Positions 33,970 to 49,409 of a DNA stretch of 64,000 bases are shown here, piece after piece; within the stretch, counting starts at the first letter, position 1, and each line of letters begins with the position of its first letter. The notes beneath the pieces were generated by a model. That model searched no databases. It saw only the letters and a program-made list of their open reading frames with translations, and was not told the DNA's origin. The stretch spans positions 922,370-986,369 of the forward strand of contig NZ_CP043875.1 in NCBI RefSeq assembly GCF_032878975.1, given 5' to 3'. A program made the position numbers and the translations under genes. The stretch is from Methanoplanus sp. FWC-SCC4. Lineage in GTDB: Archaea; Halobacteriota; Methanomicrobia; Methanomicrobiales; Methanomicrobiaceae.

Positions 33970-34917
33970 ATGACTAAATGCAAAGTCCTGATTATTGGTG
34001 CAGGTGCGGTCGGGCTCTCCATTGCTGCAAAAATCTCTGAGAATGCAGATGTTTCAGTTGTATGCAGAAAACGACATAGTGATTCAATAGCCAAAAACGG
34101 ATTGCTAATGGATGGAATCTGGGGGGAGAAAACAGTCTGTAACATTAATTGTATAACTGAAAAAAATCCTGCCAAAAACGATGATTATGATTTTATTTTT
34201 CTTACTTCAAAAAGCACTGATACTGAAAAATTGTGCGATGAATATAAGGGGCTGATGTCCGGCAAACCTGTTGTAAGTATTCAAAATGGCATTGGAAATG
34301 AGGAGATAATTTCCGGTTTTACCGACATTGTGCTTGGTGCTACAATCACTACAAATTTTCAGGCCACAGGGGATGGCCGGGTAAATGTGAATAGTGAAAG
34401 CGGTTCTATGAAAATTGGTTTCTTCCCTGATGATTCTCTGATAAACTATAATGCAAATGAAATTCTGGATAATATTATTGAGATTTTAACAAAGTCCGGA
34501 ATACCTGTTGAAAAATCCTCTAACATCAAATCGGCAATCTGGGAGAAATCTCTGCTTAATATTGCAGTGAATCCCCTTACGGCAATATTATCAGTAAATA
34601 CCGGAGAGTTGCTGGACGAAAATCTGAAGGAAATTGTCAGTGAAATAATTTATGAGGCTTTTGAAGTTATAAAAGCGGAAAAAATTTCTGTAAAATGGAA
34701 TGATGCAGAAGATTATCTTTCATACCTTTTTGAATATCTGCTGCCTGCATTTTATACCAGTTATACATCAATGTATCAGGATTTAAAATTAAACAGGATG
34801 ACTGAGATTGACTTTATTAACGGTGCAATTGTAAAGAGAGGCAAAGATCACGGAATTATAACGCCTTATAATTCATTTGTTTCAGGTCTTGTCAGATATA
34901 AACAGAAAAAATCATGA
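33970..34917 (+). CDS. Ketopantoate reductase (PanE/ApbA) family protein
   Basis: About 315 residues. The NADPH-binding motif LIIGAGAVGLSIAAKIS is at the N-terminus, VSIQNGIGNEE mid-way is the usual NG motif, and WEKSLLNIAVNPLTAI is the start of the C-terminal helical domain. The enzyme would reduce ketopantoate to pantoate for coenzyme A. Many paralogues of this family act on other 2-keto acids, so the substrate is uncertain. I start at ATG 33970, not the TTG 6 bp upstream; no ribosome site is visible. Confidence 0.8.
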   Translation: MTKCKVLIIGAGAVGLSIAAKISENADVSVVCRKRHSDSIAKNGLLMDGIWGEKTVCNINCITEKNPAKNDDYDFIFLTSKSTDTEKLCDEYKGLMSGKPVVSIQNGIGNEEIISGFTDIVLGATITTNFQATGDGRVNVNSESGSMKIGFFPDDSLINYNANEILDNIIEILTKSGIPVEKSSNIKSAIWEKSLLNIAVNPLTAILSVNTGELLDENLKEIVSEIIYEAFEVIKAEKISVKWNDAEDYLSYLFEYLLPAFYTSYTSMYQDLKLNRMTEIDFINGAIVKRGKDHGIITPYNSFVSGLVRYKQKKS

Positions 34918-34946: not shown

Positions 34947-34979
34947 TACTTTCACACCGCACGCCCTGTACATATATAG
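34947..34979 (+). promoter_or_regulatory. Copy A of the TACTTTCACACCG element with TATA box
   Basis: TACTTTCACACCGCACGC (34947-34964) is 8 nt upstream of TATATAG (34973-34979). The same 18-bp element with at most five changes is found before uvrA and before the 59-residue gene. Transcription would start near 35001, but no ORF of note follows. Confidence 0.6.
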
Positions 34980-35000
34980 CTACAATTTTAATATTTAGAT

Positions 35001-35191
35001 TGTGTCAGGTTAAGCTAATGATGCATCACCTCGTTATCAGGTTTTAGAAGTCTGTGTCCGAAAATATAGATAAAAAACATGTTTCCTGAGTGAAATATCA
35101 TTTAATTGTTTGATGAAAAAGCCTCCCTTAATACTGGCACGATTACCCCATAATATCCGGTTAACCTCCGGAAAAACCTTCTCTATTTTTT
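35001..35191 (+). ncRNA. Possible small RNA from the orphan promoter
   Basis: The predicted transcript begins about 25 nt after the TATA box and could end at a perfect 5-bp GC hairpin (TCCGG at 35156-35160, CCGGA at 35168-35172) followed by T6 at 35186-35191. No real ORF is in between: only 9- and 26-codon frames exist. A short peptide or an untranslated RNA are both possible. No known RNA family is recognised. Confidence 0.25.
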
Positions 35192-35351: not shown

Positions 35352-35564
35352 TCAGGACTCAACTTCAAAAAATCTTAGAACAACCGGAACATGGTTCTCA
35401 ACTTCTTCATAGAAATATTTTCCAAGCTCAGGTCCGGAATCTGCAATGGACTGGTTAATTGTTTTAATTAACCAGGGAGCAACATTTCCTTCTTTGTCTA
35501 CTGAGTTCATCAAAACGACGATTGCTTCATCTACATCAATTTTGTTATGCCATCTATATCCCAT
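35352..35564 (-). CDS. Small protein of unknown function
   Basis: A 70-residue protein (MGYRWHNKIDVDEAIVVLMN...). A good ribosome site, GGGGGGAT, is 7 nt upstream of the ATG, and codon use looks like its neighbours, so it is probably a true gene. It has no cysteine or known motif and appears mostly helical with a short hydrophobic end. I do not recognise it. Confidence 0.6.
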   Translation of the reverse strand: MGYRWHNKIDVDEAIVVLMNSVDKEGNVAPWLIKTINQSIADSGPELGKYFYEEVENHVPVVLRFFEVES

Positions 35565-38809: not shown

Positions 38810-40273
38810 ATGTCTGACGCAAATTCATCTGATTTATGGCTTAAATCTGAATCAAAAAAAGATTTGAAATTTGATTTAATATTAAATTCTTTAAAGCAGG
38901 AATTCCCTCAAAATTCTGAAAGTGATTTTATAACTCTTATGTGTTCATCATTTCAAAATTCGGTTGATGAAACATACTGGGTTACAAAAGAAAAAAAGGT
39001 GATATTGGCAAATAAAAAGGCCTGTTACACACTTGGATATAATATTGAGGAAATTCTTGGCAAAAATTTTGGTGAAATCCGAATTGATATCGATGATGAT
39101 TTTACTTTTAGTACCTTATGGGACAGGCTGAAAAGCCGGAATATTATTCACTACGAGATTAAACACAAAAAATCAGATGGTACATATTATGATGTTGAGT
39201 CACATGCAAAAAGGTATTGTCTGAATAATATTGAGTTTATCTGTATATTTTCACGTGATATTTCTGAAAGGAAGAAATATGAAAATATTTTAAAGGAATC
39301 CGAAAATGAAAAGACTGCAATAATAAATGCTGTTCATGAAAATGTGATATATTATGATAAAGACCTCTCGATAAAATGGATTAATGAAAAACCGGCAGAG
39401 GCTGTTGGCAAAAAACCTGAAGATATTATCGGAAAGAAGTGTTATACTTTCTCGCATAACGGTGAATGTGAATGCAGTGAATGCACAATTAAAAAAGTTA
39501 TAAAAACCGGTCAGAGTCTTGTAGAGGAGAAATATAAATCAAGCGGGCGCTGCCTTGAAATTTCCGGTTACCCGGTATATGATAACTGTGGAAATATAAC
39601 AGGAGCTGTTGAATCAATTCTGGACATAACAAGGCGAAAAAATACTGAAATCGCACTCCAGACCCGTGAAAAGCAGTACAAAGAGCTTTTTACAACGATG
39701 ACAAATGCCTTTGCGCTTCATGAGATAATTACAGATGATCAAAATGTACCTGTTGATTACAGATTTCTGGAAGTAAATCCTGCATTTGAAGAGATGTCCG
39801 GAATTAAGGCGGCAGATATAACCGGCAGAACATTTCTTGAAGTATTTCCTATGGGAAGAAAAGGAATGATAGATAAGTATTCACATGTTGCTCTGACAGG
39901 AGAATCTGTTAGTTTTACAGATTATAATCCCGTTTTTGAAAAGCATCATAATATCTATGCATACAGTCCGCGTAAGGGTCAGTTTGCAACAGTGTTTACT
40001 GATATTACAGATGTTGTAAAATTAAAAAATGAACAGAAGATCTCTTTAGATCAGATCAATAAAAATTTAGAGGAACTTGCAATATTAAACGATGAGATCA
40101 GAAATCCTCTTCAGGCGATAATGGGCTATATTATGCTTGAGGATTTTAAATACTCGGAGAAAGTGATTAGCCAGATTGAAATTATTGATAAACTGGTAAA
40201 CCGGCTTGATCAGAGATGGCTTGAATCTGAAAAAATACGCGATTTCCTAAGAAAGCACTATGACTTTGAGTAA
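38810..40273 (+). CDS. PAS-domain sensor protein, first of a tandem pair, without kinase core
   Basis: A 487-residue cytosolic protein with three PAS domains: about residues 45-155, 165-285 and 290-405. The second has a C-x-C-x2-C set in GECECSECTIKK and the earlier KKCYTFSH, as in many methanogen sensors, and may bind a cofactor. The C-terminal 65 residues resemble a DHp helix pair, but the H-box S-H-E-L-R-T-P-L is read here N-D-E-I-R-N-P-L: the histidine is aspartate (D428). There is no ATPase domain. The role is likely signal relay by partner binding. Confidence 0.82.
   Translation: MSDANSSDLWLKSESKKDLKFDLILNSLKQEFPQNSESDFITLMCSSFQNSVDETYWVTKEKKVILANKKACYTLGYNIEEILGKNFGEIRIDIDDDFTFSTLWDRLKSRNIIHYEIKHKKSDGTYYDVESHAKRYCLNNIEFICIFSRDISERKKYENILKESENEKTAIINAVHENVIYYDKDLSIKWINEKPAEAVGKKPEDIIGKKCYTFSHNGECECSECTIKKVIKTGQSLVEEKYKSSGRCLEISGYPVYDNCGNITGAVESILDITRRKNTEIALQTREKQYKELFTTMTNAFALHEIITDDQNVPVDYRFLEVNPAFEEMSGIKAADITGRTFLEVFPMGRKGMIDKYSHVALTGESVSFTDYNPVFEKHHNIYAYSPRKGQFATVFTDITDVVKLKNEQKISLDQINKNLEELAILNDEIRNPLQAIMGYIMLEDFKYSEKVISQIEIIDKLVNRLDQRWLESEKIRDFLRKHYDFE
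40076..40273 (+). repeat. 198-bp near-identical repeat, copy 1 (3' end of PAS gene 1)
   Basis: The stretch coding for LAILNDEIRNPL to the stop is repeated at 41783-41980 with about 96% DNA identity and complete protein identity. Flanking codons drop quickly in similarity, pointing to gene conversion. Confidence 0.85.
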
Positions 40274-40519
40274 AACAGGTATTAAGGTCATAAATAATTC
40301 AAGATAATTTTTAATATTTTTTCCAATCCGGATTTCTTCAGAGTTAAGAAAGAAATCATAAATAATTAATTTAAATGCAGGATTATTCATAAATTTTATT
40401 ATCATAGGCTTTTAGATTCAAGGTATTTGCATTTGAAATTTTTTAAAAAAGTAAATATAAATTATATATTTTATGGCCAAAAGCTCAAAATATGACAAAA
40501 GTAAATTATCATAAATACC

Positions 40520-41980
40520 ATGCCTGTCAAACACAAAAAAAATATTTCCAGTCCTGATAAGTCAAAAGTCCCGGGTGAAGGAAATACTATCATAGATTTT
40601 CAAACCGGATTTTTAAAAATGTCAGACAAAATCGATTATAGTCTCATGTGTTTTGTCCTTGAAAATTCCGAAGACGAGATATATCTGGTTAATAAAAAAG
40701 GGAAAGTTCTTTTTGCAAATGATCGGGCATGCAGATCACTGGGTATTATAAGAGATGAAATTATTAATGAAAATATAGATTTTATATTTTATAAACCCTG
40801 TAATCAAAAAGATAATGGGAATTTTTTGGAATTGCAATCTGAAAATGAAGGGAAAAAATTCATCAATATTCAGAGAAGAAAAGATGGAACACAGTATTTT
40901 ACAGAATCTTATTTTAGGATCTTTAATTTCAAAGATTTGGAAATATTTTCAGTATATTCAAGAGATATTACTGATAAAATAAATTATGAAGAATCTTTGA
41001 AGAATTCAGAAAAGGAAAAAACTATTATCCTAAATTCAATACACGAAAACCTTGTTTATTATGATAAAGATTTCTCAATAAAATGGGCAAATCAGGACCC
41101 TGCGGACTCTGTCGGATTGAATCCTGTGGATTTAATCGGGAAAAAATGTTATAGCCTGTGGTATAATAGAGAAGAACCATGCAGGGACTGTACAATTCGA
41201 AAGGCAATGAGAGAAGGCCGGATTTATATTGAAGAAAAAACAAAATCCAGCGGCAGATCAGTTAAGGTTGCAGCTTATCCGGTTTTTAATGATGAAGGAG
41301 AAGTAGTTGGTGCAGTAGAATCCCTTCTGGACATAACCAAACGAAAAAATGCAGAAAAGGCTCTTGAGATCAGTGAAAAACAATATAAAGAGCTTTTTTC
41401 AACCATGACCAATGGATTTGTTCTTAATAAGGTAATTACTGACAGCGAGGATAATCCTGTTGATTATCAATTCATTGAAGTAAATCCTGCATTTGAGCAG
41501 ATGACGGGTCTTAAAGCGGAGGATATAATAGGGAAAAATTTTCTGGAAATATTTCCAAATTGCAGGAGAGATTTAGTAGAAAGATACGGGCGTATTGCTC
41601 TTAGTGGAGTTTCCGAAGAATTTACCGATTATAACCCTTTCTTCAAAAAACATTATCATATATATTCATATAGTCCGAAAAAAGGGTTTTTTGCAATAAT
41701 ATTGTCTGACATAACTGATCTGGTGTTGCTTAAAAAACAGCAGAGAGAATCCCTTGAGCAGATAAACAAAAATTTTGAGCAGCTCGCGATACTAAACGAT
41801 GAGATCAGAAATCCGCTTCAGGCGATAATGGGCTATATCATGCTTGAGGATTTTAAATACTCAGAGAAAGTGATTAGTCAGATTGAAATTATTGATAAAC
41901 TGGTAAACCGGCTTGATCAGAGATGGCTTGAATCTGAAAAAATACGTGATTTCCTAAGAAAGCACTATGATTTTGAGTAA
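40520..41980 (+). CDS. PAS-domain sensor protein, second of a tandem pair
   Basis: A 486-residue paralogue of the gene 246 bp upstream, with the same three PAS domains and the same DHp-like end. The second PAS has the cysteines in GKKCYSLWYNREEPCRDCTIRK. From codon 422 on the protein is identical to its neighbour and the DNA differs at only about eight silent sites in 198 bp, while the N-terminal parts differ strongly. H-box histidine is replaced by aspartate (D427), and there is no ATPase domain. Confidence 0.82.
   Translation: MPVKHKKNISSPDKSKVPGEGNTIIDFQTGFLKMSDKIDYSLMCFVLENSEDEIYLVNKKGKVLFANDRACRSLGIIRDEIINENIDFIFYKPCNQKDNGNFLELQSENEGKKFINIQRRKDGTQYFTESYFRIFNFKDLEIFSVYSRDITDKINYEESLKNSEKEKTIILNSIHENLVYYDKDFSIKWANQDPADSVGLNPVDLIGKKCYSLWYNREEPCRDCTIRKAMREGRIYIEEKTKSSGRSVKVAAYPVFNDEGEVVGAVESLLDITKRKNAEKALEISEKQYKELFSTMTNGFVLNKVITDSEDNPVDYQFIEVNPAFEQMTGLKAEDIIGKNFLEIFPNCRRDLVERYGRIALSGVSEEFTDYNPFFKKHYHIYSYSPKKGFFAIILSDITDLVLLKKQQRESLEQINKNFEQLAILNDEIRNPLQAIMGYIMLEDFKYSEKVISQIEIIDKLVNRLDQRWLESEKIRDFLRKHYDFE
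41783..41980 (+). repeat. 198-bp near-identical repeat, copy 2 (3' end of PAS gene 2)
   Basis: This is the partner of the block at 40076-40273. All differences are silent third-position or leucine first-position changes. Confidence 0.85.
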
Positions 41981-42594: not shown

Positions 42595-42631
42595 TACTTT
42601 CACACCGCATGCCCACATGCTCATTTATATG
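42595..42631 (+). promoter_or_regulatory. Copy B of the TACTTTCACACCG element with TATA box (uvrA promoter)
   Basis: TACTTTCACACCGCATGC (42595-42612) is 11 nt before TTTATATG (42624-42631). Transcription would start near 42653, leaving a very short leader before the uvrA ATG at 42661. The element is in the activator position relative to TATA. Confidence 0.65.
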
Positions 42632-42660: not shown

Positions 42661-45480
42661 ATGGATAAATTAGTAATACGGGGAGCAAGGGAACACAACC
42701 TCAAAAATATTTCCGTAGAGCTCCCAAGAGACAAACTGATTGTAATAACAGGAGTTTCAGGCTCAGGAAAATCTACTCTGGCATTTGATACGATATATGC
42801 GGAGGGTCAGCGAAGGTATGTTGAATCTCTCTCTGCTTATGCAAGACAGTTTCTTGGTTTAATGAATAAACCTGATGTTGATTCAATAGACGGCCTTTCA
42901 CCTGCAATTTCAATAGAACAGAAAACAACCTCTAAAAATCCGAGAAGTACTGTCGGGACTGTCACTGAAATATATGATTACCTTCGTCTTTTGTATGCGA
43001 GGGTAGGTATTCCGTATTGTCCTGAACACAATATTATAATTGAGTCAAGATCTCCTGAAAAAATTGCAGACTCGATAAAAGATGACTTTTCAGGAATGGT
43101 TACAATACTTGCACCTGTAATCAGGCAGAAGAAAGGCACTTACCAACATGTCTTAAAAGAACTTGACAGTGAAGGGTTTACAAGAGCAAGAGTTGACGGG
43201 GAAATCATCCGGACTGATGAAGAGATCAATCTTGAAAGATATGTCAAGCATGATATCGACGTTGTCATCGACAGACTTGAGCCGGGAGAAGACAGATCAA
43301 GGCTTGTTGAAGCAGTTGAAAATGCTCTTTTAAAATCTGAGGGACTTTTGATAGTTTCAGGAGAGAATGATACTGAAAAGATGTATTCCTCCCGTATGGC
43401 ATGTCCTGTTTGTGGGATCTCCTTTGAGGAGCTTCAGCCGAGAATGTTTTCATTCAACAGTCCTTTTGGTGCATGTGAGGAGTGCAACGGGCTTGGAATA
43501 AAGATGGAGTTTGATGCTGAACTAATAATTCCGGATAAATCAAAATCACTCTCCGAAGGGGCGGTTGCAATGTACAGAAATTTCCTTGACGGATTCAGGG
43601 TTCAGTATTTGGCTGCCGTTGCAAAACATTACGGATTTGATATATTCACTCCGTTAAAGGATCTTACAAAAGAGCAGTATAATGCTCTTGTATATGGATC
43701 GGATGATTCTATACGCTTTAACATGAAGATGAAGGGAGGGGATGCGTTCTGGTCACATAACGGGAAATGGGAAGGGTTGATCCCTCAGGCAGCCCGTCTT
43801 TATGGTCAGACCAAATCTGAATACAGAAAAAAAGAACTTGAAAAGTTCATGCGAATCTCTGTTTGCCCGAAATGCGGGGGTAAGCGTTTAAAGGATAAAG
43901 TCCTCTCTGTAAAAGTAGCTGATAAATCCATAATTGACGTTACAGATCTTTCCATCTCTAAATCCCTTGAGTTCTTTGAAGATCTTTCTCTTTCAAGGAA
44001 GGAGACTGATATTGCAAAACAGGTTTTAAAAGAAATAAAATCGCGGCTTTTGTTTCTTAACGAGGTTGGACTCGGGTACCTGACATTGTCAAGAACGGCA
44101 GGGACTCTTTCCGGAGGAGAGGCGCAAAGAATCAGACTTGCAACACAGATTGGATCAAATCTTATGGGTGTATTGTACGTTTTGGATGAACCCTCAATAG
44201 GTCTCCATCAGCGTGATAATCATAAACTTATTGAAACCCTGCAAAAACTTCGTGATCTTGGCAATACGCTTGTGGTCGTTGAACATGATGAAGATACGAT
44301 CAGGGAGGCGGATTATGTTGTGGATATTGGCCCCGGCGCAGGTGTTCATGGCGGAAATATTGTTGCGTTGGGAACGCCGGAAGAGATTGAGGCAAATCCT
44401 GATTCACTCACCGGCAAATATCTTTCCGGGACTGAAATTATTGAAATTCCAAAGAAAAGGCGGAAGAGCGATTCTTTCATTCATATAACCGGATGCAGTG
44501 AAAATAATCTCAAATCTGTTGATGCACATATTCCGATAGGTCTTTTAACCCTGATTACAGGAGTTTCCGGCAGTGGTAAATCAACACTTGTATACGATAC
44601 ATTATACCGTGCCCTTATGAAAACGGTAAACGATTCAAAGACAAGTCCCGGGAAATATGAAAAGCTTGAATTTGATTCTGAAATTGACAAAGTTATTGTA
44701 ATTGATCAAAGCCCTATAGGAAGAACGCCCCGTTCCAATCCTGCAACATACACCAAAGTGTTTGATGAGATAAGGAAGATATTTGCCGAAACAAAAGAGG
44801 CAAAGCTAAGAGGCTATAAACCTGGAAGATTTTCATTCAATGTCAAAGGGGGACGCTGTGAGGCATGCAACGGTGACGGGCTTATAAAAATTGAGATGAA
44901 CTTTTTGCCTGATGTGTATGTTGAGTGCGAGGAATGTAAAGGAACAAGATACAATGCCGAAACTCTTGAAGTCAAATATAAGGGAAAATCAATTTCAGAT
45001 GTTTTGAACATGACAGTTGAAGAGGCATACTATCTCTTTGAAAATATTCCTTCAATTAAAAACAAACTCGAAACTCTTTGCAGGGTAGGTCTTGGTTATG
45101 TAAAACTTGGCCAGAGTTCAACAACTCTTTCCGGAGGAGAGGCACAGAGAATTAAACTCACAAGGGAGCTATCCAAAAAAGGTACCGGAAAAACAATTTA
45201 TCTTCTGGATGAACCAACTACCGGTCTGCATTTCCATGACGTGAAAAAACTGATTCAGGTTCTAAACAGTCTTGTTGACAAGGGAAATACTGTTGTTGTA
45301 ATTGAACACAATCTTGATGTGATTAAATCGGCAGATCATATTATTGATTTGGGACCTGAGGGAGGCGATATGGGAGGAGAAATAATTGCCACCGGCACTC
45401 CAGAACAGGTTGCAGAGAATATGAAAAGTTATACCGGACATTTTCTTGCCTATATGATGAAAAAAGAAACTAAAAAATAA
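42661..45480 (+). CDS. uvrA: Excinuclease ABC subunit A (UvrA)
   Basis: The 939-residue UvrA recognises damaged DNA and loads UvrB. It has two ABC ATPase halves with Walker [10 protein letters not shown] (both copies), signatures LSGGEAQRI twice, and zinc modules: CPVCGISF...CEECNG and CEACNGDG...CEECKG. Length matches bacterial UvrA. The bacterial-type repair system is present in some methanogens by old transfer. It heads uvrA-uvrC-uvrB behind the TACTTTCACACCG promoter element. Confidence 0.97.
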
Positions 45481-49100: not shown

Positions 49101-49133
49101 TACTTTCACACCGTGCGCAAAGCAGATATATAG
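49101..49133 (+). promoter_or_regulatory. Copy C of the TACTTTCACACCG element with TATA box
   Basis: TACTTTCACACCGTGCGC (49101-49118) is 8 nt before TATATAG (49127-49133), the same spacing as copy A. Transcription would start about at the ATG at 49155, so the message is probably leaderless. Confidence 0.62.
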
Positions 49134-49154: not shown

Positions 49155-49334
49155 ATGAAAAACATCGAAATGTCAAAAGACGGAAATATTCTTACTTTAA
49201 AAGTGGATCTCTCACAAGAATTCGGAGAATCAAAATCCGGAAAATCCATAACAATTGCATCAACAGAAGGGAATATATCTGTGCCTGATGATGAAGACAT
49301 TAAAATAGGCCTTAATATTTACCGGAAAAAATAA
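49155..49334 (+). CDS. Small conserved methanogen protein (59 residues)
   Basis: The frame codes for MKNIEMSKDGNILTLKVDLSQ... and ends in GLNIYRKK. I recall near-identical small proteins in other Methanomicrobia, always of unknown function. It has alternating polar/hydrophobic strands, so a small beta fold, and no cysteine. It has its own TATA box and the same upstream element as uvrA, with the ATG at the expected transcript start. A DNA-damage-linked role is inferred from the shared element only. Confidence 0.7.
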   Translation: MKNIEMSKDGNILTLKVDLSQEFGESKSGKSITIASTEGNISVPDDEDIKIGLNIYRKK

Positions 49335-49409
49335 CCGGATCATGATTGGGGCTTTTCCCGGATTATTAAATTTGTTCTGAACAAAAAAAATTGTGAATTA
49401 AAAAAATTA

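Follow-up and report, generated by a model that had tools for sequence, protein, structure and literature searches.

The locus and its neighbours

The window analysed here is a stretch of 64,000 nt from the genome of Methanoplanus sp. FWC-SCC4, a single contig of 2.31 Mb (G000 in our genome set). The locus of interest follows panE, a ketopantoate-reductase-like gene (33970-34917, + strand), and opens with a promoter element, ACTTTCACACCGCACGCC (34948-34965, + strand). A TATA box, TATATAG (34973-34979, + strand), comes next; its T and the first A of the element are 25 nt apart, a distance shared with another copy of the element, at 49102. When the window was shuffled 100 times, the 32-nt string from the element through TATATAG never arose by chance. 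Beyond the promoter are about 190 nt in which the only ATG frames have 9 codons (35018) and 26 codons (35113), and the stretch closes with a GC hairpin, UCCGG-UUAACCU-CCGGA in the RNA and TCCGG-TTAACCT-CCGGA in the DNA (35156-35172, + strand), and a run of six Ts (35186-35191, + strand) that is probably an archaeal terminator. An earlier reading made from the window's sequence only had described the element, TATATAG, the short frames, the hairpin and the T-run, together with the shared spacing and the lack of a credible open reading frame, and it holds in every particular once the start is moved from 34947 to 34948.

Downstream, a conserved 70-aa gene present in 23 of the family's 28 genomes is convergent (35352-35564, - strand), and the next genes on the + strand begin only at 38810, past a block of minus-strand genes, which leaves the promoter at 34948 no downstream mRNA of the ordinary kind to drive. 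We place the predicted small-RNA gene at 34999-35191 (+ strand), from an AUUGUG 5' end, which would fall ~25 nt downstream of the TATA box, to the final T-run. The choice of 5' end relies on a fixed distance of 50-51 nt between ACTTTCRC and ATTGTG in nine genomes.

Farther along the window (38810-41980) are two adjacent PAS-domain-like sensor genes whose C-terminal ~60 residues are identical, which suggests a recent tandem duplication or gene conversion.

A promoter element shared by repair genes

The pattern ACTTTCACWCYGCRYG matches the window's genome six times in the forward direction and never in reverse, and a reversed control pattern has no matches at all. Over the order, the 13-mer ACTTTCACACCGC occurs in exact copies in 87 of 232 Methanomicrobiales genomes (reversed control, five matches in total). 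In the window's genome, the element with a TATA-like sequence precedes uvrA, radA, an RPA-type ssDNA-binding gene, dinB, mre11/sbcD, a Cdd1/HHH gene and a 59-aa ORF near 49155; a gene of unassigned function beginning MQKAGYIKKSGYH is also found behind it, both here and in relatives. Pfam matches identify dinB (IMS), Mre11/SbcD (Metallophos) and Cdd1, and the remaining names are those we presume from the N-terminal sequences. In relatives, the genes behind the element include radA (in many genomes), RPA, uvrA, Orc1/Cdc6, an RFC-like ATPase, an XerA-like recombinase and radical-SAM genes.

Two further copies lie within the window, at 42596-42613 (+ strand) upstream of uvrA (42661-45480) and, together with TATATAG, at 49102-49133 (+ strand) upstream of the 59-aa ORF (~49155-49335). 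The orphan copy, too, precedes a TATA box in a fixed orientation and at a fixed spacing. The placement of the element before repair genes, in one orientation and with an almost empty reversed control, is strong evidence that it marks a DNA-damage regulon across Methanomicrobiales; that damage induces these genes is what we infer from their content. We found the element described nowhere in the literature searched. The regulon appears to be undescribed, and it is a larger finding than the small RNA alone.

Several other observations concern genes behind the element. The form ACTTTC[AG]CACCGC stands ahead of many repair and replication genes across the order (for example L061, L065, L160, L281, L297 and L370) and also ahead of a TnpB-like gene in G092. 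One of the genes that most often follow the element encodes a conserved protein of ~140 aa starting MQK[AS]GY, the N-terminal part of which has no Pfam match (L084, L138, L163, L264, L289, L298). A second conserved protein of unassigned function, FEHIGAARQYEGTLRIDIKTMQAV..., follows the element in several f5 genomes (L263, L265, L266, L275, L278). The 59-aa ORF, directly after uvrB, has no Pfam match either, and the segment 42661-49029 is a uvrA-uvrC-uvrB cluster of bacterial type in an archaeal genome.

Relatives of the RNA

A blastn search of the region against 60 relatives returned element matches and short chance matches, with no homolog of the RNA body, and Rfam 15 gave no match at the gathering score, only a chance match to TtnuCD4 (E 2.7). 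Relatives can be recognized by their promoter and layout. An element copy without an ORF in G015 (L134) has close homologs in G008 and G001; these three members were revealed by an order-wide search with the tail motif ACCTCCGGAAA..CCT, most matches of which fall in coding regions. Searching the order for ACTTTCRC-N(41-44)-ATTGTG added G013, G022 and G024. The matches to this pattern that were inspected outside the family look like chance or, in the single case of L259, like the start of a radA-like gene.

In all, nine genomes from three genera (G000, G001, G007, G008, G013, G015, G019, G022 and G024) carry the element, the TATA box and AUUGUG, with an ACTTTC-to-ATTGTG distance of 50 or 51 nt in every case. 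A covariance model built on promoter and RNA together and run over the 232 genomes scores the nine at 81-115 bits. These scores are partly circular rather than independent, since the nine were found by the promoter pattern and then trained the model; the gap beneath them is informative, as the next score, 33.6 bits, belongs to a regulon promoter, that of the 59-aa ORF. A weaker match at 27 bits (G003:C22) shows the spacing of the nine, closes its stem with GUGCC/GGCAC and carries AUCCUCC in its tail; it is a probable tenth member. The RNA is therefore found in three, probably four, of the family's nine genera, and the regulon throughout the order.

The sequence-only reading held that poor conservation of the region beside a conserved promoter would refute it. 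As far as primary sequence goes, conservation is indeed poor, with no homolog by blastn, but structure, termini and spacing are kept. Recurrence of position, promoter spacing and structure despite this lack of sequence homologs argues that the orphan copy is not an accident.

Two more element copies without an ORF, L075 (G044) and L164 (G151), are followed by strongly self-complementary sequence, which in L075 ends in a T-run; they are possibly independent damage-regulon RNAs. BLAST searches with the regions downstream of L075, L149 and L164 found no relatives, L075 and L164 matching only themselves.

Predicted structure

The RNA is predicted to fold as a rod. Its 5' end, AUUGUGUC, would pair with GGCACGA/GGCACAA near the 3' end and leave a 3' tail; in the window's RNA the arms of the long closing stem are GAUUGUGUCAGGUUAAG (34998-35014, + strand) and CUUAAU.A.CUGGCACGAUU (35127-35144, + strand), the first placed by the fold and the second by fold and stem alignment. 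All members have the same architecture: a closing stem AUUGUGY../..G.CACAA, a variable inner helix, and a 3' tail with AC(C)UCC, usually followed by a T-run (in G022 and G024 there is no clear T-run directly after the tail motif). The AUUGUG start finds a partner of the CACAA, CACGA, CACAG or CGCAA type near the 3' end in every member, and the stem continues inward from the termini into an inner helix that differs in sequence and length from one member to another. The closing of the rod and its 3' tail are supported by this recurrence in nine to ten genomes.

All ten RNAs fold better than their dinucleotide shuffles, with z from -2.3 to -5.2: -2.75 (G000), -3.65, -3.81, -3.88, -5.21, -2.27, -5.04, -3.81 and -3.97 for the nine, and -4.11 for the probable tenth in G003. 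For the window's RNA, z is about -2.1 when the whole RNA is folded and -2.75 for its stem-loop part. In the alignment of the closing stem, 90.5% of cells are paired, compared with 25-58% when the arms are slid, and all of the unpaired cells are due to a one-base bulge that shifts the stem in the G001/G008/G015 group. One pair is C-G in four sequences and A-U in two. The 5' arm is nearly invariant, and for this reason covariation in the closing stem stays within the range of column shuffles (136 of 500 attain the observed value); covariation proper is only suggestive. A search for covariation in related genomes, proposed earlier as a check, thus returned a secondary structure that is conserved in 9-10 genomes, with weak formal covariation.

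Motifs resembling the 16S rRNA 3' end

The archaeal 16S rRNA 3' end has the general sequence GGAUCACCUCCU, which was used here rather than the window genome's own gene. Two stretches of the RNA are identical to pieces of it. The first, AUCACCUC (35025-35032, + strand), is a possible Shine-Dalgarno-binding stretch; its AUCACC also occurs in loops of the G019, G008 and G001 RNAs, making four members with G000. The second, ACCUCC (35164-35169, + strand), lies in the 3' tail on the loop side of the terminator hairpin and is our proposed seed. AC(C)UCC is found in the tails of nine of nine members, mostly predicted to be unpaired; when the tails are shuffled, the probabilities of meeting the motif at least once in each, multiplied over the seven less related members, come to ~1e-6, for a motif that was chosen post hoc. 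By their sequence, AUCACC and ACCUCC could mask Shine-Dalgarno sequences. The corresponding target pattern, CCGGAGGTT-N-ATG, is frequent in every one of the family's 28 genomes and singles out no target.

Interpretation

Taken together, we propose that 34948-35191 is a complete small-RNA gene of the DNA-damage regulon. The element and TATA box would drive a transcript from ~34999 to the T-run, both ends being predicted, and damage would induce it jointly with uvrA, radA, RPA, dinB and mre11. The unpaired, C/U-rich AUCACC and ACCUCC would then pair in trans with Shine-Dalgarno sequences, so that translation of at least one mRNA is repressed while the cell responds to damage. To this full reading, a trans-acting, Shine-Dalgarno-directed small RNA of the damage regulon, we assign a probability of about 0.6. 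Its first part is firmer: the existence of the RNA and its membership of the regulon are well supported by the comparisons above, and a real noncoding RNA gene belonging to the regulon is very probably what lies here. The repair genes gathered behind the element, and the recurrence in nine or ten genomes of a structured RNA at constant spacing from it, bear out the earlier suggestion of a small RNA in the uvrA regulon. Methanogens may thus use regulatory RNA within their DNA-damage response. A bolder version, in which an order-wide, SOS-like regulon built around a long non-palindromic element has a dedicated small RNA that mimics the 3' terminus of 16S rRNA and lowers translation initiation during repair, whether for all mRNAs or for selected ones, is speculative and would surprise us somewhat if it proved correct.

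The strongest competitor agrees that this is a noncoding RNA of the damage regulon and has it act as a scaffold or decoy for a protein, such as the regulon's own regulator, an Sm-like protein or some repair factor, instead of pairing with mRNA. Conservation of rod and termini around an inner helix of free sequence is what one would see in an RNA recognized by shape, and the search for conserved target sites named no target. On the other hand, AC(C)UCC is kept in every tail, where a role in shape only would not need it, and we regard protein binding as rather unlikely.

The genomic surroundings bear on a second possibility, namely that the transcript works in cis, as an antisense RNA or 3' UTR, on one of its neighbours, panE upstream or the convergent 70-aa gene. 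The RNA does lie exactly between these two genes in G019, as in the window, and G007 is arranged likewise; the panE neighbourhood is shared by G013 as well. In G001, G008 and G015, however, the RNA is convergent to a moaB-like gene, other genes lie near it in G022 and G024, and its neighbour in G003 is an ATPase-subunit-like gene, so that the RNA alone is constant. This variety of contexts suggests action in trans, and it makes a cis role improbable.

A peptide is less probable still. The transcript could be a short damage-induced mRNA for a micropeptide, MMHHLVIRF or MKKPPLILARLPHNIRLTSGKTFSIF, as the sequence-only reading had offered beside the small RNA, and AGGT does stand a short way ahead of the 9-codon frame (35018). 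The 26-codon frame lacks a Shine-Dalgarno sequence, no ATG frame is common to the members, and the RNAs of G008 and G013 have no ATG at all, which makes a conserved micropeptide unlikely. Four other orphan-looking element copies (L062, L083, L140, L146), which were set aside, do precede a small conserved protein; it has ~50 aa and the consensus ERAxxYPxxxRRSQMxK, begins ~50-90 nt after the element and occurs in three families. At the present locus, the gene has its own promoter, a terminator recognized by sequence and no conserved ORF, as befits a small RNA. Finally, a promoter left behind as a relic when its gene was lost, or a chance copy of the element that yields nothing functional, would explain why the RNA body has neither blastn homolog nor ORF, but this reading is largely refuted by the recurrence of spacing, 5' end, closing stem and tail in three or four genera and several contexts.

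Comparison with known systems

To our knowledge, how euryarchaea coordinate their response to DNA damage is poorly understood. A single element before uvrA, radA, RPA, dinB and mre11 across Methanomicrobiales offers a concrete, testable regulon, and the RNA, if our reading of it is true, adds a post-transcriptional arm with a defined, mutable seed. In the bacterial SOS regulon, one cis element, the LexA box, serves uvrA, the recombinase gene and dinB. The present regulon is similar in that a single cis element is common to the same three kinds of gene; it differs in having an element other than the palindromic LexA box and an archaeal core promoter (TATA).

A well-studied archaeal case for comparison is the Orc1-2 regulon of Sulfolobales (PMC9738581, PMC5817253). 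There, Orc1-2 binds a damage element that contains ANTTTC (PMC9738581; promoter study, PMC5817253). Like ours, it is non-palindromic and sits ahead of the core promoter, there in genes that damage induces. The Methanomicrobiales element opens with ACTTTC, and the likeness in sequence is confined to the ANTTTC core. Ours, moreover, is ~17 nt long, belongs to a different phylum and appears to control repair genes of the uvrA, radA and dinB type. In some relatives Orc1/Cdc6 is among the genes that follow the element, which makes an Orc1-2-type link a lead.

For the RNA, the closest comparison is sRNA162 of Methanosarcina mazei, a trans-acting RNA whose single-stranded region masks a ribosome binding site (PMC3510493). 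Both are intergenic, structured RNAs of methanogens with a single-stranded stretch able to mask such a site. The available part of that report does not describe control of sRNA162 by a damage element, and of the two RNAs it is sRNA162 that has experimental targets (PMC3510493).
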